This document shows, piece after piece, positions 3,957-39,107 of a stretch of 64,000 nucleotides of DNA; position 1 is the first letter of the stretch; each line of letters starts with the position of its first letter. The position numbers and the translations under genes were made by a program. This DNA is from Hydractinia symbiolongicarpus (taxonomy: Eukaryota; Cnidaria; Hydrozoa; Anthoathecata; Hydractiniidae): assembly GCF_029227915.1 (NCBI RefSeq), contig NC_079888.1:2057001-2121000 (forward strand), written 5' to 3'. A model generated the notes under the pieces. The model searched no databases and had not been told where the DNA came from. It saw only the letters and a program-made list of their open reading frames with translations.

Positions 3957-5141
3957 TCAATGTCCATCTGAAAGATTGCTTGAAGATTTCTTGATTTCAG
4001 TGCGTAGAGATCGAGCTTTTTTCTGTTTTGATGCAATTTTGTGCAGCTCACATTTATCTTTCACAAATGAAAAAACACGAACACGAACATAAAGCATAAT
4101 GAGATGCTCAAGTAAGTTCATTGCTAATTCTTTTGTGACTTTTTTGGTTGAGTGTGATGTTATTTTGTTGTAATTACAAAGCACAACAGGGTTCTCAAGC
4201 AGGTCTGAAAAAATTTTCTTACTATCAATTGTATGGTGAAAATTAGCAGTTGCAGCACGAACTTCAAGTTCTGCACAACAAAAAATTCTGAAAACATCAT
4301 CGGTTACTGACCATAACCCTCCTCTGTCCTTCATATTTACTAAATCAGAATTTTTATCGTCTTCCACAAGACATGACTTTCCAGCTAATAAGATGTCCAA
4401 ACTTTGAACTCCAAGCATACTTCTTGATTTTTTTGATCTCCTAATGCGACGATATAGGGTACTAAATACATAACCACTTAGATATTGAATTATGTTTCTT
4501 TCTTTGGGTGAAAAATTCACATGGGAAGAAAATTCTACAGTGTTTTCTTTTACAGTTGAATTAGTGAGATGAGCAAGTACGTGATTAGCCACTTCAAAAC
4601 CAAGGAGAATAGAGCTTCGATTTGATAAATTTCTGAAAACAATATTTACAGACACAGATTTATAGAAGGCCGGATAAAACTTTTCAGCATCGCCTTTAAA
4701 ACTACCAATCACATCTCTGACAAAACTATAGGAAAAGTTTGTATCGTCGTTTGTAATAACATAATTGACAAATTCATTTCTGGTCTTCTCACTATAGCAT
4801 TCATCTTTAGAAAGTTTACTTGCACTTAATTGGGTGTACTTCTTAAAGTATAACGGATGGAGCTTGGTTTCAGCAGTAGTGAGGCTGTCGTCATTTAACT
4901 GGTTTTGTGGCTGACGATGTTTCGCATTTCGGTGTCTTGTGAGTCCCCGTTGTGTTTTGCATGTTTTGGAGCATATATCACAGAAAAAACAGCTTTCAGA
5001 AGGGTCGTCAACTATTTCTTCAACAATTTCGGATAATTCTTTAGTTAAATCACGATTTTTCTCTAATAAATCTTCATCAATAACAGCCAAGATTGCATCA
5101 AAATCATCTTCACCAAAGAAATCCTCCCCATGGGCAGCCAT
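3957..5141 (-). CDS. intact 394-aa C2H2 zinc-finger protein, convergent with THAP transposase relic
   Basis: A single uninterrupted frame of 394 codons starts at ATG 5141. The N-terminus (residues 1-50) is acidic. Residues 54-75 form one classical C2H2 finger (C-x2-C-x12-H-x4-H). The rest has no domain I can name, but 'IIQYLSGYVF' with the following 'RRIRRSKKS' is a segment I associate with cnidarian repetitive genes. The C-terminus is Lys/Ser-rich. There is no intron and no stop, in contrast with the neighbouring transposase, whose end lies 293 bp away on the other strand. It may be a second gene of the same P-like transposon (accessory DNA-binding protein) or an independent repeat gene. DNA binding is inferred from the finger; the job of the protein is unknown. 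Confidence 0.7.
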   Translation of the reverse strand: MAAHGEDFFGEDDFDAILAVIDEDLLEKNRDLTKELSEIVEEIVDDPSESCFFCDICSKTCKTQRGLTRHRNAKHRQPQNQLNDDSLTTAETKLHPLYFKKYTQLSASKLSKDECYSEKTRNEFVNYVITNDDTNFSYSFVRDVIGSFKGDAEKFYPAFYKSVSVNIVFRNLSNRSSILLGFEVANHVLAHLTNSTVKENTVEFSSHVNFSPKERNIIQYLSGYVFSTLYRRIRRSKKSRSMLGVQSLDILLAGKSCLVEDDKNSDLVNMKDRGGLWSVTDDVFRIFCCAELEVRAATANFHHTIDSKKIFSDLLENPVVLCNYNKITSHSTKKVTKELAMNLLEHLIMLYVRVRVFSFVKDKCELHKIASKQKKARSLRTEIKKSSSNLSDGH

Positions 5142-5329
5142 TATTGATAATTCCGTGCAGTCTTAAACTGGCCACCCCGATTTAAGAAACATCTGCTTGT
5201 GAACAATAGGAACACATTATGGACGGCCCGGAATTACCAGACTATCTCTTTTTCTTATGACTATGATTTGATGAGTGTTATTTGTAGCGATGTAGTGTAG
5301 TGTTCAAACTAAATATAAGTACTGTTCCG

Positions 5330-5530
5330 ACCCATATTGTCCGGCCGACCCATGTTGTCCGAAGAACGGCAACAACCCATATTGTCCGAATCCAACCCAT
5401 ATTGTTGGGATAACCTTTACCCATATTGTCCTAAAATATCTCAGGCAACATGGGCAGGCATATAACCTCTACCCATATTGTCCTAAACCTTTTCGGACAA
5501 CATGGGCAGACATATAACCTCTACCTACGT
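5330..5530. repeat. array of CCCATATTGTCC boxes, direct and inverted
   Basis: At least six direct copies of (A)CCCATRTTGTCC begin near 5330, 5348, 5374, 5395, 5419 and 5471. Two inverted copies (CAACATGGGC) lie near 5446 and 5495. Part of the array is a 52-bp tandem repeat ('catataacctctacc' at about 5459 and 5511). The 16-mer GACCCATGTTGTCCGA at 5347-5362 recurs in inverted orientation at 17807-17822. The array lies about 360 bp beyond the last exon of the KRBA2-like integrase gene, so it may be the subterminal transposase-binding region of that element. Confidence 0.8.
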
Positions 5531-5891
5531 TTTCCCGAACTTTCTTGGATCATATGGGTTGGGGTGTCTGTTGAACTTCGAAACTTTAAAAACCTGCATA
5601 TCGGACTCGGTGACCTTAAAAACAAAAGAAAAGATAACAAATGACAAAGACAGTAAGTATTCTTGCCGAATTTTTTTAACAAGTACATGAATATAACATA
5701 AGTCAAAGAACATAGTAAAATAATTGGTAATGTAGGACACGTATAATGAAATCTACTACTGTTCATTTCGATCAAATAAGTCTTTAAACTTAGTTGTTAT
5801 GTATCCAATCCGGCTATGTGAAGTTGCACTGATGCCTAATTCAGAAAAGTTGCTTCAGAGAAAATGTACAAAACCGGTGGGTACATTTTCA
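5531..5891. other. no gene seen
   Basis: AT-rich DNA between the box array and the 3' end of the integrase gene. The short open frames here overlap the box array and show no domain. Confidence 0.5.
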
Positions 5892-7090
5892 TTATTCAGA
5901 GTGATGACGTAGTTTTTTTGGTATCGCCAAGGTCACTTTATCTCCTTGCGTGAAGTTGATGGTTTTGACTCGTTTTCCATTAAAATATTTTTTTTGTCAT
6001 CATAGTTGCATTCCTAGCAATCTCAGCAGCAACTTTCTCCCGTACAGTTGATCTTTTAGGGAATGTTGTTTCAAATGGTGTTTCACTACGTGGATTAGGT
6101 TGATCTGCAGAAAAATCGACTGTTTCATCGATTTCGATAAGTTCTGAAGTATCTTCTTCTACCCAGTGTGTTGCAAGATCCAGTTGATCCAAACCGTTTG
6201 GTTTCTGTCCAAAAACAACTTTGAACGGTGTCTTTTTAATGCTGCTAACAACAACCGTAGGTGAACAACTAAATATAAATATAGGACTAACATTCCATAT
6301 GTTTACCAGTTTTTCTAGATTTTAGCAAGGATTCATGCAAGATACTGGTTTAAAAATCAATGGAGCAACTTAAGCAGCCAAAGTCAGGATAATTATTTTT
6401 AAATTCACTCCCTCACATAGACATAACTGGGTAATACAGTTTGTTTATGTCACAAGCGTGCACTTACACTGTATTTCAGGAAGCCATTTAGACCAGAAGG
6501 AAGTCTTTGTATCCATCTCTTTGGCACTTATCATGGTCTGGATTGTTGCGTTTCCCTGCTCAACTAAACCTGAAAAAACAGTATTCCTTACACACAGATA
6601 AGAACCCAGTAAAATTTACCACAGCCTTTAGCTGTATTAGAAAATATATGTTTTCTTCTTTTTGGTAATTGAGTTGTACTTACGCTTATGCTTAGTTCCA
6701 GTACCATTAATTATGCCTAAACTTTATCTACCAACAATGTGTAAAAAAATAATATATGCACAATACAAAAAACACCTAACACAATAGAGACATTTAAAAA
6801 CCTTGGGACTGGGAATGACCAGGAGCACCATGACCGAATGTTGTTTTTCCTGGCCAGGATGCAGCGACATGTTCCATGACACCATTAACAAATTCTCTCC
6901 CATTGTCTGAGTGTATGATTTTTGGCAGTCCAAACACACTAAAAAACCTATCTTTAAATCTTTTGGATCTTTCTTCAGCTGTTTTTCTGTCCAGGGGGGA
7001 CAGCACACGGAATTTCGAAAAATGGTCAACTATGTCACCAATATATTAGTAAATTCCATCAGGTTTTGATTGCATATCAATCAAGTCAAT
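5892..7090 (-). pseudogene. KRBA2-like integrase, exons 4-6 (catalytic core and C-terminus)
   Basis: Three exons on the minus strand join in phase: 7090-6802, 6569-6470 and 6244-5892, all with GT..AG borders. Exon 4 opens with 'IDLIDMQ' (first Asp of a DDE/rve integrase core), continues with 'VDHFSKF' and then 'SDNGREF' (second Asp). Exons 4 and 5 join as 'GHSQSQ-GLVEQGN', which supplies the catalytic Glu, 38 residues after the second Asp. Exon 6 has 'KTPFKVVFGQKP' and, after a shift in an A-run near 5985-5992, 'FNGKRV' and 'GDKVTLAIP', the usual tail of this family. Damage is an in-frame TAA at 7046-7048 and that A-run frameshift, so the copy is dead. The first exons of the same gene lie at 11832-11951 and 11470-11613, with the probable first exon at 17415-17654. 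The 4.25-kb transposon at 7102-11353 sits in the intron just upstream of exon 4. KRBA2-type proteins resemble Ginger-class DNA transposon integrases. Confidence 0.85.
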
Positions 7091-7352
7091 CTGAAATTTA
7101 AAGGGGAATTAAGCCTCAAACTTAAATAGCATTATTTCGGTTAACATTATGTTCGTTTCCCAAATTCTGGTCAAAATTTTGAAAAATAAATATTATTTGG
7201 ATTGATTTTAATATAAAAGTTACCCCTTCTATGAGCGAACGGTAAGCGCCATTTAAATTTTCTGAGGTCACGGCTGATTCTGGAGACTGTTATATCGTGA
7301 CGTATATTACGCTGAAGAAGCATAAGCTTGCGCTGAGCGAAAGCAGCGAGAT

Positions 7353-8240
7353 ATGGAAAATTCAAGCTCCTGCTCTGACTCTCCTATTTCAGAAGTAGAA
7401 TATTCAAGTGACTCTAGCGAAACGTCAGTAACAGGATGTTACATGAATGAGCCTGAATACTCCAAAGCAGAACTTGAAAAAGTGACTTTTAAATCTAGTG
7501 ATAGCGAAGAAGAAGACGAATTGAATTCAAGCAGACTTGAAAATTTGCATTGGTGTACTTGTACATGTTGCGTTATTTATAATTGCTTCACTCTTGTGGA
7601 ATGCAAGTGTTGCCAAGAATTTTTCAATTTATTGAACGACAAGTTGAATGATAACAAGTGCATCACGATGCACAAGGATTTTGAAATTTTATGTTTGAAC
7701 CGCACAGTGTTAGAGACAGCCAGCATACGACCTCGACGATATCAGAAAAAATATAACGAACTCTCCACATATACTAATAAGTAAGTCTTTCTTCAAAAAA
7801 TATGTTTCTCGTAAATATTTTCACAGACCATATTTCTCATTGTCATACACTTAATCTTACAGGTCCATGCGCTATGAAAATACACACCATCGCAGATTAT
7901 TTAATTAAATTTAAAATAATGTCATTCCTTGAATATCTAATAAAAAAGGAGGAGAGCCCATGTGCCTCAAATAACAATTTGTTTCAAAGAAGTTTTGATG
8001 AATAAATAATTTCTTTCGAATATTTTATCCTGGTTTACACTATAACATAAACTTTGATTCCGTTGTAGGGAAATGAGGTACACCAGTTACCGACAGTACA
8101 CGGCCATGGTACATTATTATGAAAGGCTTGGAAAAGGATGTCGCGTGGTGATTCCAGCTTGTGTTGTGCGGAAAATAAGGGAAGAATTTCCTGATTCAGA
8201 TGGAAAATATACTGGATTCAAAGAATTTGTTGACATATAA
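7353..8240 (+). CDS. P2X7 C-terminal (ballast) domain-like protein, two exons
   Basis: Exon 1 is 7353-7780 and exon 2 is 8069-8240, with GT..AG borders and matching phase. The joined product is about 199 aa. The N-terminal ~60 residues are Ser/Glu-rich and low complexity. Then come the Cys clusters 'CTCTCC' and 'ECKCC', the 'CITMHKDFEILCLN' segment and, in exon 2, 'YRQYTAM', 'GCRVVIPACVVRKIREEFP' and a 'GKYTGFK' end. This succession is the Cys/His signature of the cytoplasmic C-terminal domain of the P2X7 receptor, which in the receptor is known to bind zinc and guanine nucleotide. No channel part is present. The gene lies inside the 7102-11353 transposon, converging on the transposase gene 70 bp away, so it is probably cargo or an accessory protein of that element. 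No stop or frameshift was found. Confidence 0.85.
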
Positions 8241-8309: not shown

Positions 8310-11063
8310 TTATTTTTTGAATCGTTTTGCATAATTCCGTTTCTCTAAAATTTTCGAAGTGTCAGGTCTGGCTGTGTGGGCAATGTTACGTGGTCGACTA
8401 AGCTTGTTTACAACTTCTTTACCAGAGATCTTTACCTTTACCCCACTCTCCTTTCTTTCAATTATGTCATTCATTATCGCATCAACAAAACTGAAAGACT
8501 TGGGTTCTTTCACAGGTTTCGCGACCCACTCTTTATTCAATTTGCTTGAGACAAACTTCCACTTTTTTTCACCGATCTTCTGACTCCCTTTACGCGCGCA
8601 TTTTACAACAGCCTGCTTTCGACGAACGTTATTGTTATGGTCCAAGATAGCCAACTTCACTCGGGCGTTCATCACATTCAACTCGAAATGTTGCCGTTTT
8701 GGTGTGTACGCTGTTATCAGTGAGTGAAAAACTTCCACGCCCCCTGTGTGGTATGATTCGCAAAGAAGTTCCATATCCTTAAAGTTTTTTTTATCAAGGA
8801 CGATTTCTTCCAATGCATTATACGCTGGCGAATGTTTCTCAATTCACTTCTTCTTTCGTGCCTCAGCACTAGAATAGGCTTCGTGTCGGCACCTGAGATA
8901 CTTGGGATATTGCTTCGCGAAATTATATTTATTCGTAACATGTTGAAGTATCGACTTCCACATTTGCACCAGCAGCTCTGGGTCACCTTGGCAGTTTTCG
9001 GCACACCAGAAAAGATGATTTCCTATTGGTTTGATCCAATCCTGTAATATTCGCCTATCTTTTCGTTTTACTAATGGTCTAAGTTTGGCTTTGATGTTCT
9101 TAGCAAAATGCCATGGATCATACCGATGCATGATATCTAACCTGTTTTCACGTATCCATTTAGCGATTTGCCTGTTTCGGTCCGTGGCAACTCTTCCTAC
9201 AGGATAGTTATCGGAACTTAACTGCTCAAGGCAATTTTTGAAGCCTTGTAACTCCAAGGGCGCCGAAACTTTACCGGTTGTTGTTTGGATTGTGGTTGTC
9301 GCAACAATTTTGTTAGACGCTGACAATTGTAAACTATATGTGCAATACTTGGCAGATTTACCAGGTGAGTCAAATCTGCAATCGCCAAGACATGCTTCAT
9401 TCTCTCCCCGACTATCCTCTCTTGCACTGGCAATATTTTTCACGAAATGGTCGTTTACAGTTGGGATTATCAGTGATCGCTGAACATCATAGTATGTTCG
9501 TTGATTGACAAAATTTAAACCAGAAAAATTCGCAACTTTCTTAACCCTTTCATATGTGTTTCCTAAAATGGTAATATATGATTTTAGGTGATCCAGACTG
9601 CAGCGTGCTGAATGAGCAGCGAAAATAACAAAAAGTCAACATGTCCGAGAGATGAGGTTGCTTTCAACCCGTTTGAAAACATGGCATAGCCTGCTGTAAA
9701 TTTGCATATCATCATGCAGCATGCAAAAGAAGATTTTTTTTACCTGAACAAAATATTGCAGAGGATAGCAACAAATTAAATGCTGGCATTTTTCCAAGCA
9801 TGGGTTGACTTTTCCAGTCAAAAACCACATGCTCATTGATGCAATACCCTTTGTATAGTACACACGTTCCCTGCTCACGCTTTTCGATACTGGTTGCGGT
9901 TCCATCACATGAACGACAGGGCAGTAAGTTAAATATTTCATCTAGCATGCTTTCGAAAACAACAAATTTCTTTTCTTTTAAAATGCTTCGTTCGGTTTCA
10001 TGAGCATCACTAATATTGATTGACTCTTCTGCACTTTCAGCGATGTAATCAGAGTCTTTTTCATCGTCAGTTGGTAAGGATTGTAATGACGAGTTTATAG
10101 GAGACAGTGAGACGTCCTCACAAACGTGCTTTCTTTTAGAAGGAGTGGAGCAAACAGTTTTTTCTTTGGAATATGCGTGATTGTTTACCACAGCAACGTA
10201 ATTAGCAGAAATGGAATAATACTCGGGAGCTTGCGCTTCAAAGTCACATGATTCTAACCGATCAGTTTGACAGCTTCTGTTTAAGTCGCTTAGTGATATT
10301 TCACATTGAACTCCAACGTTCTTGTGGGTTGGTTCAATAATCTTGAAAGATAAAATGACTAAGTTTTACCGAAAAAAAAGTTGCAACAAATCAAAATCAG
10401 TTACAGCGTGACTTACATCCTTCACACTTATGATCATGATGGTTTCTTCTTCAACCAAAGTTGGATTTGTTTGAACATTCACAGTTTCGTTTTGAGAAAC
10501 TTCGTTTTCCGTTAGCAGATGGCCGATAAGCTGTAAAACACAAAATTAAATACAACTCAGTGTAAACAGGACCTAAACAATATCATTTAAAAACACTCCA
10601 GAGGTAGTCTAGATAAAAAATAGAAAGAAAACTGATGTAATTATATGTTAGAAAAAAGTGACCAACTTCAGAACGTGCTAATTCTTCACTTCGTCTAACA
10701 GATAATTTTTTTTCGTTGCTGTAAATGTTTTGTGCCGTCCATGTTTATTTCATCGTATGTTTTGTGCGAAAATTTTGTTGGCACTGCCCCCGGTACTAAC
10801 TCTTTCTTTTTTCTTTTCGTAAAATATTCCGGCAATGTTATTTCTTTTTTTAAACAATCTGGGTGAAAATGATCTTCGCATAACACAGCGTCTTTACCAA
10901 ATTTCAACGTATTGATGTTCACATCGGCACGACCCATGTTGTTTATCCGTCTCAAACAACGCAACTTTTCTTCGTTACTGTTCGGTCGAGGAATCATAAA
11001 AAAAGACTTCACCTCTCCTTTCCCAGTACTATTTCTACAGCCATAAGCTTTACAAGTAGGCAT
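8310..11063 (-). pseudogene. THAP-domain DDE transposase, four exons, one TGA stop
   Basis: Exons on the minus strand are 11063-10667, 10530-10417, 10341-9744 and 9607-8310. The last three join in phase with clean GT..AG signals. Exon 1 starts 'MPTCKAYGC' and is a THAP domain ('CEDHF', 'VPGAVPT'). Exon 3 is an acidic linker ending in a Cys-x2-Cys region and 'NLLLSSAIFCS'. Exon 4 has the core: 'GLNFVNQRTYY', 'CRFDSPGKSAKYCTYS' (first Asp), 'VATDRNRQIAKW' (second Asp), 'RYDPWHFAKN', and 'RHEAYSSAEARKKK' (candidate Glu). A TGA at 8844-8846 interrupts exon 4 where a Trp codon is expected in this family; the frame then continues to 'KRFKK' and the true stop at 8310. In exon 1 the frame also needs one fewer A in the eight-A run near 10706-10713 to reach the donor at 10666. 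The copy is thus nearly intact, about 800 aa, and recently dead or recoded. The element's ends are still recognisable. Confidence 0.85.
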
Positions 11064-11469
11064 CGTGTTTGGAAGAAAGATAACATCAACAAATACGCTG
11101 TTACTTTTGTTCACATTGTGTAAACAACTTTAAAAAAGATGAAGAGATCAAAAAATTGAAATGAGCGTAAAATACGTCATAGATCTCCATCGCAGATTTT
11201 TTATGATTTAAACATGGCGATTACTGTTGTCAACTTTTATGCTAGAAAAGGGATGTAAATTCAAAGAATTTCAATTTTTTTTATATACCATCAAAATAAG
11301 TAGGGTTTGTAAAAGATATTTCCGAAGAAAAAAAATTTGGACTTAATTTCCCTGTAAGCCAATATATAGGGAACAGTAACTATGGTACCAATTTATATCA
11401 AAAACTTCTATTTGAGCATTATGTGTAAAAGTAATTAGATACAACTAAAACAGTTTTTTACAATGTCAC

Positions 11470-18860: not shown

Positions 18861-20699
<1,839 letters not shown>

Positions 20700-20718
20700 A
20701 GATTCACCAAATTGCTGG

Positions 20719-21525
20719 ATTGCTCCCGAAATGCAAATTTCGTAATCAGTCTTTAAATCGATCTAGCATCTTCTGTAGTAGGAAATACGTGGCTGTTAAG
20801 TGCCGAAAAGAAAGTTCCATGCCTCTTTGATGGAATTGAAGTTAAAAATTTCTATAATTTACATTTACAAAAAAAATTGAGCAGAAGTGCGCAAAGCGTT
20901 TGCATTTCGGGAGCACGCATGTTTTCTCGGGCTACATTGACCCCCATAAGTTGTCCTTTGGTCCCATATTAGCTTGCTTTATTCCCTCTTAAATGGTAGA
21001 ATCCCACTCCATTCCACCTTTATTTTATCATATCTATCTAGGAAAAATACAAAAATTTTGATAAATTTGGTTGAGTCAAGTTCATAGTGTAATATCGGGT
21101 ATGTGTTACGTACGCTGATGTAAAATGCGACTTCGATAGCGTTTGATTTTTTCAGTGTAACTCTCATATCATCTTTAAACACTACAAAACCAGTTTAAAT
21201 CCTTTTGCTTCTTAACAAAGTGGGTCTGGGGTATGTTTAAAGGATGGAATGGAATAGTAAATATTTTTTGAAAAAAAATATAAGCATTTTCTCGAGTTTT
21301 TGCCTTCAAAAAATTTGATTTGAATTTCGGGAGCAAAAATTTAAGGCGTTTTTGTGTAATTATTCTTAAAAAATGTCATTACACAATGCGGTTCAGTTGT
21401 TAAAAGAGAAGGAACAATTCGCACAACTCAATTCAAGAAAAAAATTGTTACAATTTATATCAATGTGCTCGATTTGACGCATGCGCAAAAAGACCCAATT
21501 TTGAAATTTGGATTTCAGGAGCAAT
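20719..21525. mobile_element. small TIR element (MITE-like) with ATTGCTCCCGAAAT ends
   Basis: ATTGCTCCCGAAATGCAAATT (20719-20739) is matched at 19 of 21 positions by the reverse complement of 21505-21525. An internal perfect 16-bp inverted copy lies at 20899-20914, and another 'atttcgggagca' at about 21325. The element is about 0.8 kb and shows no coding frame. AAATTG occurs just outside both ends and may be the target duplication. Confidence 0.6.
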
Positions 21526-23251: not shown

Positions 23252-23910
23252 CTGTTAATTCTAAATGTTTAATTTTCTATTTTAATTATGTACATTTTTA
23301 AAGTTATCCGTTTTAATTTTCCTTTTAAAAGCTATTTAGAACAGGGTTGTATGTAAATGTGTATTATTTAAGTATAACTGAGTTATTGACGCAACACATT
23401 TTCATTTTATTTTAACCATATATGAAAAGCAACTTCAACGCCTCACTCACAAAATATTAAAGGTATATTGACGGAGAACAACATGATTAGCAATGTGAAG
23501 TTAATACACCCCAAGAGTCCTTCGCCTGTTACCCCAGTACGGCAGTTTGTCATTATTATCTTGGAAAAGCAAAATCTAGTGACTACAGTGACTGGACACT
23601 TTTTCTAAAAGCAGAATATATTTTTTACAAGATTAAGTCTCCAAGTGCCACGCGAGACAACGCAGCGAAACTTGTAAATTACATTTGTTTTGAAAATATG
23701 ATTTTTTGGGAAAGAAATGGTTAATAGTAGTCACTTTCTTTTTTAAAAGTCTAAGTTTTTTAAAAAACGTAAAGCTTACAGGGGAATTATAACGTAATGT
23801 GCAGAAAGAATGGGATAATAATAAATTGCGTAATCAGGTTAAAATTTTAATAAGAAAACTAAAAATCAATTTGTGAAAACGTATTAAAATGCTATGTCTC
23901 AAATTATTAC

Positions 23911-25290
23911 CTTTATCTCTAACTTCATCGTTATTCTGTCTCTTCGTCTTCGACATGATAAAATAACGAATTTTATCTCGTAGCTGTAGTGAGGTAAGAT
24001 TAAAAAAGCTCGGATGTAATGTTGACTTTTCTTTCACGACAGTCAGAATGATTTTACCATCACTTATCTCCTTTGCAAAATGCACTTTAATGGCATCCTC
24101 TAGAGACACATCAACGTTATTCCCAGTTTGGCGTAGGACAGATCTCAGCTCCCTACTTGTTTCTGCGGCATTTTTTGACTTTTCTTGCAGAAAGTACGAC
24201 CGTCTGGCTGTTGCCTTGGAGTGGCACATTAAATTTGCCAACTGTTGCTCCAACTCTGCCCTCAAAGAATGAGTTTTAGTGACACACGTCTTGCGGACTA
24301 GTGTTGCATTAAGACGTGGTCGCAGCAAACTCCTTCCCACTGCTTTATTCCAAAATGAGTTCAACTGGCCTGTGGCCATTGAAGAAGACATTTTATTTCC
24401 GCTCCAGCTGGTAAAAAACGGGTTGTTGGCAGAACCTTTTTCGTCGTCTAGGCCTTCTAGCCTATTTCAGAAATGTTGAAAGAAAATCGATGATTCTTTA
24501 TATAGATTTGCAGTGAAGCAAATTGTCGCTGGTCCCGACGTCGCTATTGTTTTGTGGTTAAAAACACTTACAATATATACTCCATTTTCCATTTTCCCCG
24601 TCATGAACTCTTTGGTTGTCATGTTAGCCAAAGCACCGGTCCTTGACGCGTTATCCAAGCAGAGATAAGTTAAGATATAATCTCGAACAGAGGTAAATTG
24701 CTTGAATGTTGGAACTTTACCAGTGGTCAACACTTCCTTGATATTCCTGCGACAATTGGATACGTGTGTTGAATTATCGAAGGTGTTGACCTCTTCAGCT
24801 GTTATGAGCTGATCTAACTGCTCCAAATCTTTCATCCATTTCTCACTTTTGGCCTTCTTTCTATACTCCACAATCCAGTTTTCCATGATAACTATCATGC
24901 TTGGACAGTCCTTAACGAAATCTTTGAAAAGCACAGGTGTGTCACACAAAATATACTTGTAAAAATGACATAGAGAATGGAGATAACTTTTTATAGTTCC
25001 AGCTTTTCTCCGTTTTTCAAATTTCAGTAACCATTGATTCCTGATCTTCATGCGGTCAAAAAGAACGGATAATTCGTATGAATCTTGGCTGGTGTCCTTT
25101 CAAATCAGTTGCACTTGTCTGGAATGTTGTTTCGCAGCACGTTTATTTTTTCGCTTACCATCAGGGCTAACCAACCACAATTCAAATTTGTCAAAATGTG
25201 ACTCATTCCTCCATGGTGTAATTATAATATCCATATTCTCATCCTCCTCATCTTCATCCTCACTTCCATCCAAATCTTCAATTCTACATT
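23911..25290 (-). pseudogene. tyrosine-recombinase core exon (Crypton-like)
   Basis: A 1,380-nt exon. After an acidic start ('CRIEDLDGSEDED') comes 'FELWLVSPDGKRKNKRAAKQ', the usual opening of Crypton-like recombinases, then the SAM-like core-binding part ('NQWLLKFEKRRKAGTIKSYL'). The catalytic half has 'RDYILTYLCLDNASRTGAL' (Arg I), 'VYIVSVFNHKTIA' (Lys), 'NATLVRKTCVTKTH' (Arg II), 'LANLMCHSKATARRSYFLQ' (His and the Tyr nucleophile). All five key residue types are thus present. TGA codons at 25100-25102 and 24467-24469 break the frame; translation continues in the same frame on both sides. Donor GTAATA at 23910. Cryptons move by site-specific recombination of a circular DNA form; whether this gene does is inference. 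Confidence 0.82.
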
Positions 25291-33574: not shown

Positions 33575-34395
33575 ATGGCGGAGAGCGCGGGCGTATTGTT
33601 GTTATACTTGTTTGTACTTGGCTTATATGTTTTTAATTATGAAAAGCAACGTTTTACTACATCGAATCGTATTACCGAAACTTGCAGTGATAGAGAATCG
33701 TTCGAAAAAGATGATTTATCTACTCGACGTAGAAATATAACAAATCAATATTCGAAATCTGTTACTGCTTTCATATTAATCTGGCCCTAATTTTACATGT
33801 ATCGCGGACTCTGTTAAATCTAAAGGTTTTACTGTGCTCCATCAAAATATTAAAGGGTTATGTGGGAAGAAAGATCTCCTTGAAGATATTTTATTTGAAA
33901 ATAAAAAAATCGACATTCTCTCCTCGAGTGAAACATTTGTTGCTAACGACAAGTTGTTTGACACAGAAATCCGAGGGTTCGACTTCGTGCATAAGAGTCG
34001 TACAACTGGAATGGGAGAAAGAGTGGGTGCATATATCAAGCAAGGTGTTCCATATGTGAGAAGAAGAGAAAAAAGGATATTGAAATTTTATGGCTCTTGG
34101 GAGATATAAATTGTTTTTCTTATAAGAATCGATCACAAAGAGATAAAAGATATATTCACTACCTTTGGTTTCAAACAATTAATTACACAACCAACGAAAA
34201 TAACCGAAAATAGTGCAACTTTAACAGACGTTGTACTATCAAAATCTCCAAACACCATTTCACATGGTAAAACGCTTTCATCCAGTCTAAGCGATCACGA
34301 CACGGTTGACTGTATCAGAAAGAAATTTGTTACAAAATTCGCTCCAAAGAAATTAACGAGTCGAAATTACAAACATTATAATTCAGAAACAGTCT
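33575..34395 (+). pseudogene. APE-type LINE, endonuclease part, broken
   Basis: An N-terminal frame from 33575 shifts near 33790 into 'VLHQNIKGLCGKKDLLEDIL', 'KKIDILSSSETF', 'FDFVHKSRTTGMG' and 'VGAYIKQGVPYVRR', the first half of an apurinic-type endonuclease. The centre is deleted near 34090-34110 ('ILWL' joined to 'LGDINC', with a stop TAA at 34107-34109). It resumes as 'FGFKQLITQPTKITENSAT' and 'LSDHDTVD', the SDH-type closing motif. The reverse transcriptase of the same element follows at 37740, after the inserted R2-like LINE. Jockey/CR1/L2-like by appearance; dead. Confidence 0.8.
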
Positions 34396-34519: not shown

Positions 34520-34587
34520 CCTTCTATCAGCTTTTCCTCCAATTCGTTGAAGTCCATCAACGAATTGGAGGAAAAGCTGATAGAAGG
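34520..34587. repeat. perfect 31-bp inverted repeat, 6-bp spacer, at LINE 5' junction
   Basis: Bases 34520-34550 are the exact reverse complement of 34557-34587, separated by AGTCCA. The right arm is the first coding sequence of the R2-like ORF ('ELEEKLIEG' region). The left arm is an inverted copy of it abutting the dead APE LINE. It is probably a 5' fold-back formed when the R2-like LINE integrated. Confidence 0.95.
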
Positions 34588-36976
34588 GCTTGGTGTCATT
34601 AATAAGTCCTTATACACTGGAGCGCAAAAACTTTGGATCTTGCAACATCTTTTGATCCCGCGAATTCAGTGGCCACTGTTAATATACGAGGTCTCGATGT
34701 CTGTTGCTGGGCGCCTAGAGCAAAAGGTTTCAGTGTTCATACGAAAATGGCTGAACTTACACCGTTCCATCACAAACATTTCCCTATATGCTGACTCCTC
34801 TCCTTGCCCTCTGCCCATTAAGAGCCTCACTTCTATTTTAAAATCCGCAAAGATTAGCGGCCACCTACTTTTGCGTCACTCCAAAGATCCGATTCTGTCA
34901 ACACTCGATCCATCTTTAAAGGCAGGTTCTTGGAAGGTGAGCGATGCAGTTAACATAGCTGAGGGTGAATTAAAGTACAAGACCATAAGGGGTCCTGTAC
35001 AGCGTGGACGAACCGGTCTTGGCATTTGTAAAGTGGAAGTAATACCACCAAAAACCACTCACAAGTACAGAAAGTTAATCGCAAAAACATCGGCTGAGAT
35101 TGACGAGGAAAGCTATCTATCTAAGGCACTGCAACTTCAGGTGCAGGGCCAATGGACAAGATGGGAGAACTACGTAAAGTTTGATCTTTCATGGAAGAAC
35201 ATCCTAGCAACTCCTCCTAATCTCTTATCTTTCTGCCTGCAATCCACTTACGATGTTCTGCCATCACCAAGTAACCTAAGGAGGTGGAAAATAAATACAG
35301 AACCATCATGTTTCCTATGTCACAAAGAAATTTGCACTTCTGCTCACATTCTTGGTGCTTGTAAAACTGCTCTTTCCCAGGGTAGATATACCTTTAGACA
35401 CGATTCTGTACTTACCCATTTGGTAGAAACTTTGAAAAAGTTCATTTTTGAGCTTCCTTCTGAACCTCCTAAAAATTGTCAAAAAATAGCCTTTCTAAGA
35501 GCCGGGTCAAAGGCACATACAAAATCTAAAGTGTCAGGTATACTGCACCTTACCAAAGATTGGAAGATTGTTGCTGACACACACTCGAACTATGTGTTTC
35601 CTAGCCATATTGCCATTTCTGAGCTTAAACCGGACCTTGTGTTATATTCAAATGACCTTAAGCGCGTTATTATTGTAGAACTCACTTGCCCATGTGAGGA
35701 AAACATGAATGCTTGGCACTCCACAAAAGTTGCCAAATATTCCTGTTTAATGAATGTGATTATGGTTAATGGCTGGCAAGTTGATTTCTTCGCAGTGGAA
35801 GTAGGAGCAAGAGGATATTGTGCAAGAACCACCACTGCCTGTTTAAAAAGAATGGGTTTCACCAACAAACTTGCTTATTCCACTGCAAATGATCTCGGTA
35901 AAATCAGTATGAGGTCTTCTTTTTGTATCTGGCTGGCACGTGAATCCAATGTTTGGTCAACTGACTCCTTAATGCAATTATCCAAATCCAAGCAGGCTTT
36001 GCCCATTGTGGAGACCAAGGGTGTTTCATCTCGCCGAAAGGGGCCATCTAAAAAGGTTAGCCAAAATAAAAATGACACTCAACCAATTAGTGTCTATAAA
36101 AACATCGGTTTTTTAAACAAAGGCAACACTTGTTACGCCAACGCCATTTTGCAAGTATTAAGTACCATTCCAACACTCTGGTGCCAGAGTGGGTCAGAAT
36201 CGTTTCATTTATCACCTATTGCGAGGTCTATTTCGCTTAACATGGCGAAGCTGAAGCAATCATTGTCACCTGTTGACCCTTCGAATTTTCTCTGGGCCCT
36301 TGAACGTCAAATGCACTCTGATGGGAAACTGGACTTCCAATTTAATACTCAGCAAGATGTAGCAGAGATTTTGTTTGTGGTTTTGGACGCCCTTAAGGGA
36401 TTTTCCCCGACTGCTGCAGATAAAATCTCAACTGAAATCTCAATGTCCGTAAGCTGTAACACCTGCCTGTGCACCTCGGTAAATATCGAAATGCAGGACA
36501 TTTTAACACTGCCAATGACATCTAAAATCCAATCTTGTGTCAGCAAATTTTTAGAACCGGAAATTCTAACTGATGGAAACAAGTGGTTTTGTCCGCAATG
36601 CTTTGCACATAGAGAGAGTACTAGAGAAACGCAAATCAGCAGGAGTAGTGAAATCTTATTCCTGCATCTTAAAAGGTTTTTAAAACATGGTGAACATCTG
36701 GTAAAAGACAACAGAGTTGTTGAATGTGTTTCTTTACGTGACTCTCTCCTGCAACTACCTCTCGTCAGTGATACAGACACAATGTTTAATCAGAACTACT
36801 CATTGTTAGCAACAATTAATCACTCCGGTACATTAACCGCAGGTCATTATTGGGCTTATGTTAAGGATCCTGCCACAAATTCTTGGTACCACTGCAATGA
36901 TAGAGCGGTTTGCAAATGCTCTCCACCTATTCTCAACAACAATTCATGTTATATTCTTTGTTACGTTCGCTGTTGA
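34547..36976 (+). CDS. R2/NeSL-like LINE C-terminal polyprotein fused to USP deubiquitinase
   Basis: An uninterrupted 809-codon frame, 5'-truncated relative to a full element because the RT palm is absent. Residues 1-250: thumb-like region ('LLIPRIQWPLLIYEVSM', 'SSPCPLPIKSLTS'). About 255-275: CCHC knuckle ('CFLCHKEICTSAHILGAC') then 'RHDSVL'. About 360-390: restriction-like endonuclease signature PD..., 'VIIVELTCPCEEN', then 'VEVGARGYC'. These are hallmarks of R2/NeSL-type LINEs. About 515-809: a ubiquitin-specific protease: Cys box 'GFLNKGNTCYANAILQVL', 'QQDVAE', two Cys-x2-Cys pairs ('CNTC', 'CPQC'), His box 'TAGHYWAYVK' and 'WYHCNDRAV'. The Cys, His and Asn/Asp catalytic positions are all kept. 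NeSL/Utopia LINEs are known to carry Ulp1 or OTU proteases; a USP at this end is a different deubiquitinase class. The ORF is intact while its host LINE is dead, so the insertion is recent. Confidence 0.88.
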   Translation: MKSINELEEKLIEGLGVINKSLYTGAQKLWILQHLLIPRIQWPLLIYEVSMSVAGRLEQKVSVFIRKWLNLHRSITNISLYADSSPCPLPIKSLTSILKSAKISGHLLLRHSKDPILSTLDPSLKAGSWKVSDAVNIAEGELKYKTIRGPVQRGRTGLGICKVEVIPPKTTHKYRKLIAKTSAEIDEESYLSKALQLQVQGQWTRWENYVKFDLSWKNILATPPNLLSFCLQSTYDVLPSPSNLRRWKINTEPSCFLCHKEICTSAHILGACKTALSQGRYTFRHDSVLTHLVETLKKFIFELPSEPPKNCQKIAFLRAGSKAHTKSKVSGILHLTKDWKIVADTHSNYVFPSHIAISELKPDLVLYSNDLKRVIIVELTCPCEENMNAWHSTKVAKYSCLMNVIMVNGWQVDFFAVEVGARGYCARTTTACLKRMGFTNKLAYSTANDLGKISMRSSFCIWLARESNVWSTDSLMQLSKSKQALPIVETKGVSSRRKGPSKKVSQNKNDTQPISVYKNIGFLNKGNTCYANAILQVLSTIPTLWCQSGSESFHLSPIARSISLNMAKLKQSLSPVDPSNFLWALERQMHSDGKLDFQFNTQQDVAEILFVVLDALKGFSPTAADKISTEISMSVSCNTCLCTSVNIEMQDILTLPMTSKIQSCVSKFLEPEILTDGNKWFCPQCFAHRESTRETQISRSSEILFLHLKRFLKHGEHLVKDNRVVECVSLRDSLLQLPLVSDTDTMFNQNYSLLATINHSGTLTAGHYWAYVKDPATNSWYHCNDRAVCKCSPPILNNNSCYILCYVRC

Positions 36977-37735
36977 TCCGCTTTTTCTTTCTTTCTTATA
37001 CATTTATCATTACGTTTATAAAACCTGTACTTCCAGGGTCATGGGGGAGGAAAATGTAAATCCGAGCGGTTTTATATTACCCCAGCTAGTTCATTCGAAC
37101 CAGTTTGCCGTCAATACCCAGAGGGTAAAGAGTTCAGCTCACTCTTCTCTGGTAACTTAAAAGAAGCTTAGCAAGGGGGTTTGCTTTCAGCTTGTCTTTG
37201 GGTGTAACGACCCCACTTTTTACCCCAGTTCAGTAAGGTGCCCAAGTTTACTAACTTGGTCTTCAGGCTTGACAACCCTGCTGTCCTTAGTCAAAATATG
37301 TACAGGCTGGTCCTGTCATGACAACCTCCTGTGTAAGGCTGAGTGTTGGGGCCCTGTAACACATGTGGAAAGCTACAGCCAGAGTCACAAGTTCTGGCGC
37401 ACAGGAGGGTTTTATATAATTCTTTTTTTTATATTATATATTTTTGACATATACATTTTTTCCATTTGTGTTTGTTCTGTAACCAGTCCGTTTATGTTGT
37501 TAGATCTGTCTTGTGTCGTATTGTTTGTGATTGAAGGATTGTTTTTTCTCTTTAAGATTTTCTCAGTGAATAGTTATAGGTCCAAGTTGGACAGTACTCA
37601 TGCTTGTAATAAGCAAGAAAGTGTATTCAGCACCTTCTTCTGGGAGCCTAATCCCAATTTTATTTACATCCACCGTCCCTGTAGACAAGATACTTCAGTG
37701 CAGCTTGCTGTATTGTAAACCTTTTTCATCTGTAA
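36977..37735 (+). other. 3' untranslated region of the R2-like LINE
   Basis: Non-coding, less AT-rich DNA between the stop of the USP ORF and the point where the host LINE's RT resumes (about 37740). It has short GC-rich words such as 'gggtcatgggggaggaaaat'. No poly(A) tract marks its end, as is usual for REL-endonuclease LINEs with structured 3' ends. The boundary is approximate. Confidence 0.55.
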
Positions 37736-37739
37736 AAAT

Positions 37740-39107
37740 CAACTCCAAGACAATATTTCAAGTTTGAAACTTTCTGGAAATGCTTGAAAAATCTCTTTCC
37801 TGCGAAGGCAAAAAGGACTATATCAAACGCTAAACGGAACCGAGACCGCAAATAAAAAGAAATTGCAAATGGGTTCTGCTTGTTTTTCCACAGATAATCG
37901 AGAAATGTATTCATCAACAACTTTCAAAATACATGGAATCAAATAATCTTTTGTCATGAAAGCAATTTTGGGTTCCGTAAGCATAGATCAACTGAAACGG
38001 CTGCAACTTTGTTCTTGGATGACATTCACAAAGCAATGAATAAATCACAACTAACTGGCGCCATTTTTTATCGATCTTAGCATGGCTTTCGATACAATAA
38101 TTCATAGCGCCATTCTAAATAAACTACCGAATTATGGCATTCTCGATCATAAAAAACAATCTTTTACAGATTACTTAACCGTTTAACCGTTGGCAGCACG
38201 TTTCCTACAACATCACCCTATCTTCGAGTCAACCCGTATTTTATGGTGTCCCTCAAGGATTAATACTGGATCCGCTGCTCTTTTTACTCTATTTTAACGA
38301 GACTGAAAAGCAACTCGAGAACTGCGAAATTATGATGTATGCCACGGTCATTAACTTTCATCACAACAATATATTTTCAATCGAACATGCACTCACCAAA
38401 GACTTAAAGAATTTATCTGACTGGTTAGAAGAAAATGAACTCATCTTGAACCTTAAACAAGAAAAAAACAGAGGTCATACTTTTTGGGACACAATCACGA
38501 CTTACAAGACAAAACCAAAACATCAGCATTATGTATCGCTCAGATAAAATTAACAATACAGAAAGATACCAGTATCTAGGAGTCAACCTGGATCCACCAC
38601 TGACTATGGTTGATCATTTCAACTCTGTATACAGGAGAGTATCTGGGAGACTTCGAATGTTACGTAAAATTAGATCTAATCTATCAGCTACCGCAGCACT
38701 GCGTATCTATCAGGCTATGATCGTACCGAACGCAACATATTGTTCACTTACAAATTACTTCCACCAGCCATACAGAATGCATATGCTCGAGTTACTAGAT
38801 AGCACATAGTATCATCCGACACGACACTCACATTACAACAATTCATAATTATCAGATGCGAAAGCTCTGTACCACCGTGCATGAATGTTTAATAGGCGAC
38901 GTTCCTATGTTTGAAGAGTATTTTAAGGTGATATGTCACAACATCGGGACAAGGAACAATCACCACCTTCTTCGTGACCCAATAGTTAAGCTTGAATCGA
39001 CAAAAATCAATGCTGCACTAAACTATAATAAACTTCAACTTGATATACGTTCAGAAATTGGCACAAAGGACTCATGCCAAGTTAAAGTTTTATTCTGTAT
39101 GAATTAA
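37740..39107 (+). pseudogene. APE-type LINE, reverse-transcriptase part, broken
   Basis: Continuation of the element at 33575-34395. Pieces in different frames: 'IIEKCIHQQLSKYMESNNLL' (about 37890), 'KHRSTETAATLFLDDIHKAM', 'DLSMAFDTIIHSAILNKL' (first catalytic Asp), 'YGVPQGLILDPLLFLLYFNE', 'MMYATVIN' where YADDTVI is expected, 'DWLEENELILNLK', 'YQYLGVNLDP' and 'RRVSGRLRMLRKIRSNLS'. The two catalytic Asp codons of YADD are missing without loss of frame (a six-base deletion near 38340), and there are several frameshifts. It ends after 'VKLEST' and 'YNKLQLDIRSEIG'. The R2-like LINE sits between the EN and RT halves. Confidence 0.85.

Follow-up and report, generated by a model that had tools for sequence, protein, structure and literature searches.

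The window, the whole 64,000-nucleotide stretch of Hydractinia symbiolongicarpus DNA that was analyzed, contains an open frame at 34547-36976 (809 codons plus a stop), and the same frame is open back to 34478. A sequence-only reading had placed a CCHC knuckle, a PD..E signature and a complete ubiquitin-specific protease (USP) in this one frame, and each was located there, with the Pfam UCH profile matched over its full length. The features, by position in the window, are the following.

34520-34548, + strand: 5' foldback, an inverted copy of 34559-34587 (sequence reading; non-coding for the element in native order)
34549-37730, + strand: LINE family A copy, from thumb to 3' end (alignment with L009; 3' end compared with 11 other loci)
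34549-35308, + strand: end of the reverse transcriptase (RT) thumb and linker (place in the full-length protein P0002; the R2 match extends to the thumb)
35309-35362, + strand: CCHC knuckle, C-x2-C-x8-H-x4-C (motif; faces the CCHC of the R2 structure in a weak profile alignment)
35363-35950, + strand: restriction-like endonuclease (RLE) domain (motifs conserved in families A-E; weak collinear R2 match)
35630-35635 (PD), 35678-35680 (E) and 35726-35740 (K..KY), + strand: RLE motifs (sequence signature)
35951-36103, + strand: poorly conserved linker, 22-35% identity between families (family alignment)
36104-36973, + strand: USP (Pfam UCH) domain, with the stop codon 36974-36976 directly after it (Pfam E 1e-32)
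36131-36133, + strand: catalytic Cys codon, GNTCY box (motif; Cys invariant in the seven-row alignment)
36455-36466, + strand: first zinc CxxC pair of the USP (motif, alignment)
36590-36601, + strand: second zinc CxxC pair of the USP (motif, alignment)
36845-36847, + strand: catalytic His codon, GHYWA box (motif; kept in 6 of 7 alignment rows)
36896-36901, + strand: Asn-Asp pair of the third catalytic box, CNDRA (motif, alignment)
36977-37730, + strand: 3' UTR (shares two conserved stretches with family B, one of 135 nt at 81% and one of 76 nt at 91%)

Window positions 34549-37730 are 99.66% identical to positions 5000-8182 of the full-length copy L009. The match begins at the RT thumb, and all element parts ahead of the thumb are missing from the window copy. 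Judged from this alignment, the segment is a young copy of LINE family A, 5'-truncated as had been suspected from the window alone. At its 5' edge lies a 29-bp foldback, with 34520-34548 reverse-complementary to 34559-34587; consequently, the frame ahead of 34549 does not represent element protein in its native order. This foldback may be a scar of cDNA synthesis. An older LINE seems to surround the copy, with endonuclease-like and RT-like pieces at 33780-34109 and ~37959-39107 in translations read by eye.

The full-length protein is encoded by a single ORF of ~1,426 codons, ordered as an R2-like RT, a thumb and linker, a CCHC knuckle, a restriction-like endonuclease and a compact USP that runs up to the stop. 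In the L009 ORF, the sole domains above the Pfam cut-offs were RVT_1 at residues 339-609 (E 8.2e-16) and UCH at residues 1137-1423, zf-RVT falling slightly below its cut-off. When the RT was compared with PDB chains, among which only R2 and L1 were available for a comparison of clades, R2 was the best match (E 1.4e-17), and a search with the family profile gave a whole-chain E of 2.1e-17. The C-terminal CCHC followed by the PD..E nuclease is present by motif and order and is conserved in families A-E. Against one R2 chain, the family profile aligned the CCHC and the PD..K..KY motifs collinearly, with 1.0 and 3.5 bits, scores that are near-meaningless alone, and the nuclease profile by itself matched no PDB chain. 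We call the element an RLE-type LINE on the basis of its sequence; NeSL, R2 and other RLE lineages are all candidate clades for it.

The element resembles R2 and other RLE LINEs in having one ORF with a central RT followed by a CCHC knuckle and a PD..E nuclease, in its closest PDB relative and in the lack of detectable target-site duplications (none of at least 4 bp in the 11 family-A insertions tested, the test being rough for the window copy, whose 5' flank was taken ~12 bases short of the foldback). It differs from R2 in the extra C-terminal USP, in a head-to-tail layout, and in that Pfam found neither an N-terminal zinc finger nor a Myb domain in the full ORF. Furthermore, the 3' flanks differ among 11 family-A and 6 family-B insertions, with no shared insertion target, unlike the single 28S rRNA site of R2. 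At L017, a 7-base string is common to both sides, 53 bases away from the 5' edge; it was not counted, and shuffled controls reached 8. A scan of IMG/VR with the full protein gave zero matches.

The USP domain is recognized with confidence. Pfam UCH matched residues 520-806 of the 809-codon frame over profile positions 1-254 of 254, with an E of 1e-32 and 114 bits (cut-off 23.9). USP8, USP15 and USP2 were the top matches of the window protein in phmmer (best E 5.5e-23) and gave the best scores when the USP family profile was compared with the PDB. The Cys, His and Asn/Asp boxes and the zinc CxxC pairs that characterize USPs (peptidase C19) are all present. Based on these motifs, the domain would be expected to remove ubiquitin. 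A structure model built from the single sequence had a mean pLDDT of 32.

Copies of the fusion are numerous in the genome. The window protein had at least 66 matches in the 481-Mb assembly (56 scored of 1,758 candidates), and the first 14, the window copy included, are 99-100% identical to the query, beginning at its residue 1 or 2 and ending at residue 809. Twelve close family-A loci were read at 10 kb (L009-L020, of which L016 and L018 adjoin as units of one array). An unbroken ORF with the USP is kept in seven of them, 1,426 aa long in six and 1,423 aa in one; L018 and L019 are broken by a stop, and L013, L015 and L017 are 5'-truncated. The full-length copies with a USP that the sequence-only reading had called for thus exist, and a search for a family consensus that ends ahead of the USP found none. 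Family A runs through the domain. One decayed match (C12:17516212-17517705, query 5-506) had no adjoining UCH row among the matches listed. A search of the genome for UCH returned at least 150 matches (149 scored of 1,015 candidates); among 16 places fetched, 14 were element USPs and two were host USPs, namely L038, which we take to resemble USP37, and L044, whose best PDB match is USP35. That a host USP gene had been mistaken for a LINE was ruled out, as RT and nuclease lie in the same ORF.

Four diverged families also carry the USP and are 45-65% identical to family A over the parts compared. Family B (L021-L024, L027, L028, L040, L046 and L053) shows 55-57% identity to A in L021-L024; family C (L025, L042, L043 and L048-L051), 45% in L025; family D (L026, L041 and L045), 65% over residues 423-1098 of L026; and family E (L039, L047, L052 and L054), 51% over the thumb-to-RLE part of L054. 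Linkage of the USP to the RLE was observed in A, B, C and D, and in E through the row C2:28421076-28423457 and through L052 and L054, which derive from one family-E copy. An RLE-type LINE whose own ORF ends in a USP, rather than in an Ulp1 or OTU protease, had been proposed from the window, and this arrangement recurs in all of families A-E.

The USP is under purifying selection between families, where 0.74-0.89 of its synonymous sites differ and are saturated. Nonsynonymous differences are 0.27-0.30 for C-E, 0.30-0.31 for B-D, 0.37-0.38 for A-B and A-D, and 0.46-0.51 for A, B and D against C and E; neutral drift would saturate both classes of sites. The selection sought in the USP half of the frame can therefore be recognized between families, but with dS at saturation it cannot be expressed as an exact dN/dS. 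Comparisons inside families (dS 0.01-0.11) rest on few changes and gave dN/dS values between 0.32 and 2.2, a scatter expected of copies that decay after insertion. The fusion predates the saturation of synonymous sites, and it is in frame in all five sampled families.

Trees were built with the element USPs, the human USP8 and USP15 domains and one or two host USPs (three or four cellular USPs in total). The element USPs grouped together, and the branch to the cellular USPs had a support of 99. Supports within the USP trees were 92-96 for ABD, 99-100 for CE and 80-82 for B+D; in the RT-to-RLE tree they were 97 for B+D and 100 for C+E. The topology A,(B,D),(C,E) is identical in both. This separate grouping and the matching topologies suggest a single old capture followed by co-descent with the RT-RLE part, although a second capture, from a USP beyond the four cellular ones compared, is possible.

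Capture of ubiquitin-family proteases by mobile elements is already in print. The nematode LINEs NeSL and Utopia-1_TSP are described with an N-terminal Ulp1-like protease (PMC4640811). They are RLE LINEs with a captured ubiquitin/SUMO-type protease, as here, but theirs is Ulp1-like and N-terminal (PMC4640811), and ours is a USP (peptidase C19) at the C terminus; by Pfam, the full ORF has no Ulp1 domain, its protease domain being the C-terminal UCH. The sequence-only reading had credited NeSL and Utopia elements with Ulp1 or OTU proteases; the first holds, and the term OTU is absent from the main text of the Utopia paper (PMC4640811). Another study describes Ulp1 and OTU domains in transposons of the Ginger1, Mutator and Helitron types and, in T. 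vaginalis, a transposase_11 protein with a peptidase C19 domain (PMC2836005). These likewise place deubiquitinases or deSUMOylases in mobile elements, but in DNA transposons, not in LINEs (PMC2836005). The main text of a 2026 survey of animal R2 elements contains neither the word ubiquitin nor NeSL (PMC13188248), and searches of the open PMC literature turned up no LINE with a USP.

On balance, we think it probable that an R2-type LINE lineage captured a cellular USP and kept it as a C-terminal, active deubiquitinase that protects its own ribonucleoprotein in cis. Under this model, a lineage with RT and restriction-like endonuclease would have acquired the USP, probably once, ahead of the split of A-E, and retained it as a fused, presumably active C-terminal domain. 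Acting in cis on the element ribonucleoprotein, the enzyme would strip ubiquitin from the RT-nuclease protein and, secondarily, might act on host proteins present at the nick while target-primed reverse transcription proceeds. The deubiquitinated complex could then persist until the multi-kilobase cDNA is complete. The element inserts at unrelated sites, where no target-site duplications were found. Since the USP is covalently part of the RT-nuclease protein, the likeliest substrates are that protein and whatever is at the nick. With a selected USP inside a LINE, a single active-site change would suffice to test what ubiquitin does in LINE retrotransposition.

The same position next to the nuclease would also bring the USP to the nick as an enzyme aimed at host chromatin or repair factors (ubiquitinated histones, PCNA or RPA), shaping the damage response during target-primed reverse transcription. 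The Ginger paper proposes DNA-repair roles for the Ulp1 and OTU domains of transposases (PMC2836005). Nothing in the sequence tells a host target from cis-protection, and we regard host factors as the main target as a somewhat unlikely but serious alternative. We give self-protection the higher rank over remodeling of host factors, although the sequence does not settle the choice.

That the USP fold was retained as a non-enzymatic scaffold binding ubiquitin or other proteins would agree with its faster divergence relative to the core enzymes. Identity between A and B is 69-73% in the RT, 62-64% in the thumb and linker, 55-56% in the CCHC and RLE, 32-33% in the second linker and 45-46% in the USP; the USP, lying below RT and RLE, is thus less constrained than the core enzymes. 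However, the catalytic Cys, His and Asn/Asp and both zinc pairs are kept in the better copies of five families despite saturated synonymous divergence, which makes a scaffold quite improbable. Seven rows from A-E, hand-picked among better-kept copies, were aligned; all seven keep the NTCY box, the four zinc Cys and the third-box Asp unchanged, and six keep the His. Key residues are lost in other copies: Cys to Tyr in L053, His to Tyr in L047, His to Ser in L052, one zinc Cys each in L048 and L041, and the Cys box in L025. We take these for dead copies. Finally, a private read-through or accidental fusion of one LINE copy to a host USP gene, which the window copy in isolation would permit, is ruled out for practical purposes by the many copies in five families that share the fusion.

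The complete copies examined lie head to tail, an arrangement that is unusual for LINEs. Eleven complete family-A 5' ends (333 bp) have an identity of at least 94%, and each of the 10 examined is immediately preceded, with zero extra bases, by a like-oriented 3'-terminal piece of a second unit. The 3'-terminal sequence seen in the 3' UTR of the window copy is also found upstream of complete copies elsewhere. The upstream pieces measure 111, 204, 291, 480, 756, ~868, 1,030, 2,028 and 2,450 bp, plus one whole unit (unit length 5,369 bp); the ~868-bp piece is followed by an inverted piece, and the whole-unit case is the second unit of the L016-L018 array. In family B, upstream pieces of ~74, 1,309 and 1,455 bp occur at 3/3 loci that reach the 5' end, and three more loci are truncated short of it.

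Upstream and downstream versions of the repeated part were compared at seven loci, leaving out positions a few bases from the piece ends (one L009 difference among them). Of eight private changes, four occur in both versions (L009 has two, L011 and the L016-L018 array one each) and four in a single version (L011 and L020 have one each, L014 two). The shared changes indicate that both parts were copied from the same source sequence at no fewer than three loci, like two LTRs. Re-reading of one RNA, either circular or by a jump to a sister RNA, explains the shared variants; complete insertions would then stem from templates that exceed one unit in length, so that part of a unit ends up ahead of the full one.

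The layout might have arisen in already inserted copies, through tandem amplification of DNA or gene conversion, rather than from element copying, and some points favor this. Gene conversion could likewise produce shared private variants, 4/8 private changes are unshared, and one array of DNA type is known here. This array, on C13, has five 5' ends at a spacing of ~5.30 kb, and two partly read units share frameshifts at 99.86% identity, so it grew as DNA after decay. On the contrary, the upstream pieces elsewhere end variously (111 to 2,450 bp, one with an inverted piece) and have differing flanks, like the 5' truncations of reverse transcription, and they occur at every complete 5' end inspected in both families. 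A DNA origin of the layout is thus improbable, less so than a scaffold role for the USP.

Copying by the element itself leads to a broader and more tentative proposal, to which we give less than even weight: that the USP is a core replication domain in one lineage of R2-type LINEs, that, as in Penelope elements, a template longer than one unit arises when the RNA is read again, through circularized RNA or a jump to a second RNA from the same source locus, and that the resulting pseudo-LTR is born with the private variants of its source. To our knowledge, template jumping by the R2 RT has been described mainly in vitro. There it is established and tied to untemplated bases (PMC8857657); the zero untemplated bases at our junctions argue somewhat against simple template jumping. 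The paired-variant, head-to-tail layout would be a natural record of germ-line template handling by an R2-type RT.

Among known systems, the telomere arrays of HeT-A and TART are also head-to-tail LINEs, but they build telomeres. HeT-A and TART have a promoter in the 3' end, and we know of no RLE or USP in them. Penelope-like elements carry pseudo-LTRs, and their transcription is thought to give multi-copy RNAs (PMC11167929). Their partial-tandem layout and repeated flanking UTR sequence resemble the arrangement described here, but the elements of that study possess a GIY-YIG nuclease together with a hammerhead motif (PMC11167929). Our element has an R2-like RT and an RLE signature; GIY-YIG is absent from the Pfam listing of the full ORF up to an E of 10, and Rfam gave no ribozyme family on L009 2400-8300, only two matches at chance level. 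When the 5' end was folded as RNA, the two families disagreed, with z scores of -2.8 in family A and -0.2 in family B.

A decayed relative forms a head-to-tail array, which holds five 5' ends spaced about 5.30 kb apart and includes the following locus:

G000:C13:23681500-23689000 (L037), portion of the head-to-tail array of the decayed relative

The units read have frameshifts in common and are 99.86% identical, so this array expanded as DNA. At another locus of the same genome (L033, 1-1500), an inverted piece of the element adjoins the outer end of the upstream partial unit, which is about 868 bp long; this inverted piece calls to mind L1 5' inversions.

The 3' UTRs of family A (L009 7425-8182) and family B (L021 7461-8268) have two conserved blocks in common, one 135 nt long (81%) and the other 76 nt long (91%), which may be the RNA recognised by the RT. 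The active-site motif of this RT is FMDD in the full-length family-A protein, whereas the R2 chains from the PDB with which it was compared carry FADD.

By our reading of the translations, the copy in the window is flanked by pieces of an older LINE:

33780-34109 and 37959-39107, on either side of the copy, endonuclease-like and RT-like pieces

The copy seems to have landed inside that older element. The window also contains:

19114-20753, simple repeat of about 1.6 kb with all three forward frames open, S-I-Y-L repeated
8313-11129 and 23837-25099, minus strand, two open frames, presumably resembling a THAP-domain transposase and a tyrosine-recombinase-like protein

Finally, the UCH profile search of the genome recovered an 886-aa frame, possibly a retrogene, with a USP that we take to resemble USP37:

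G000:C11:23531360-23532980 (L038), intronless open frame with a complete USP domain
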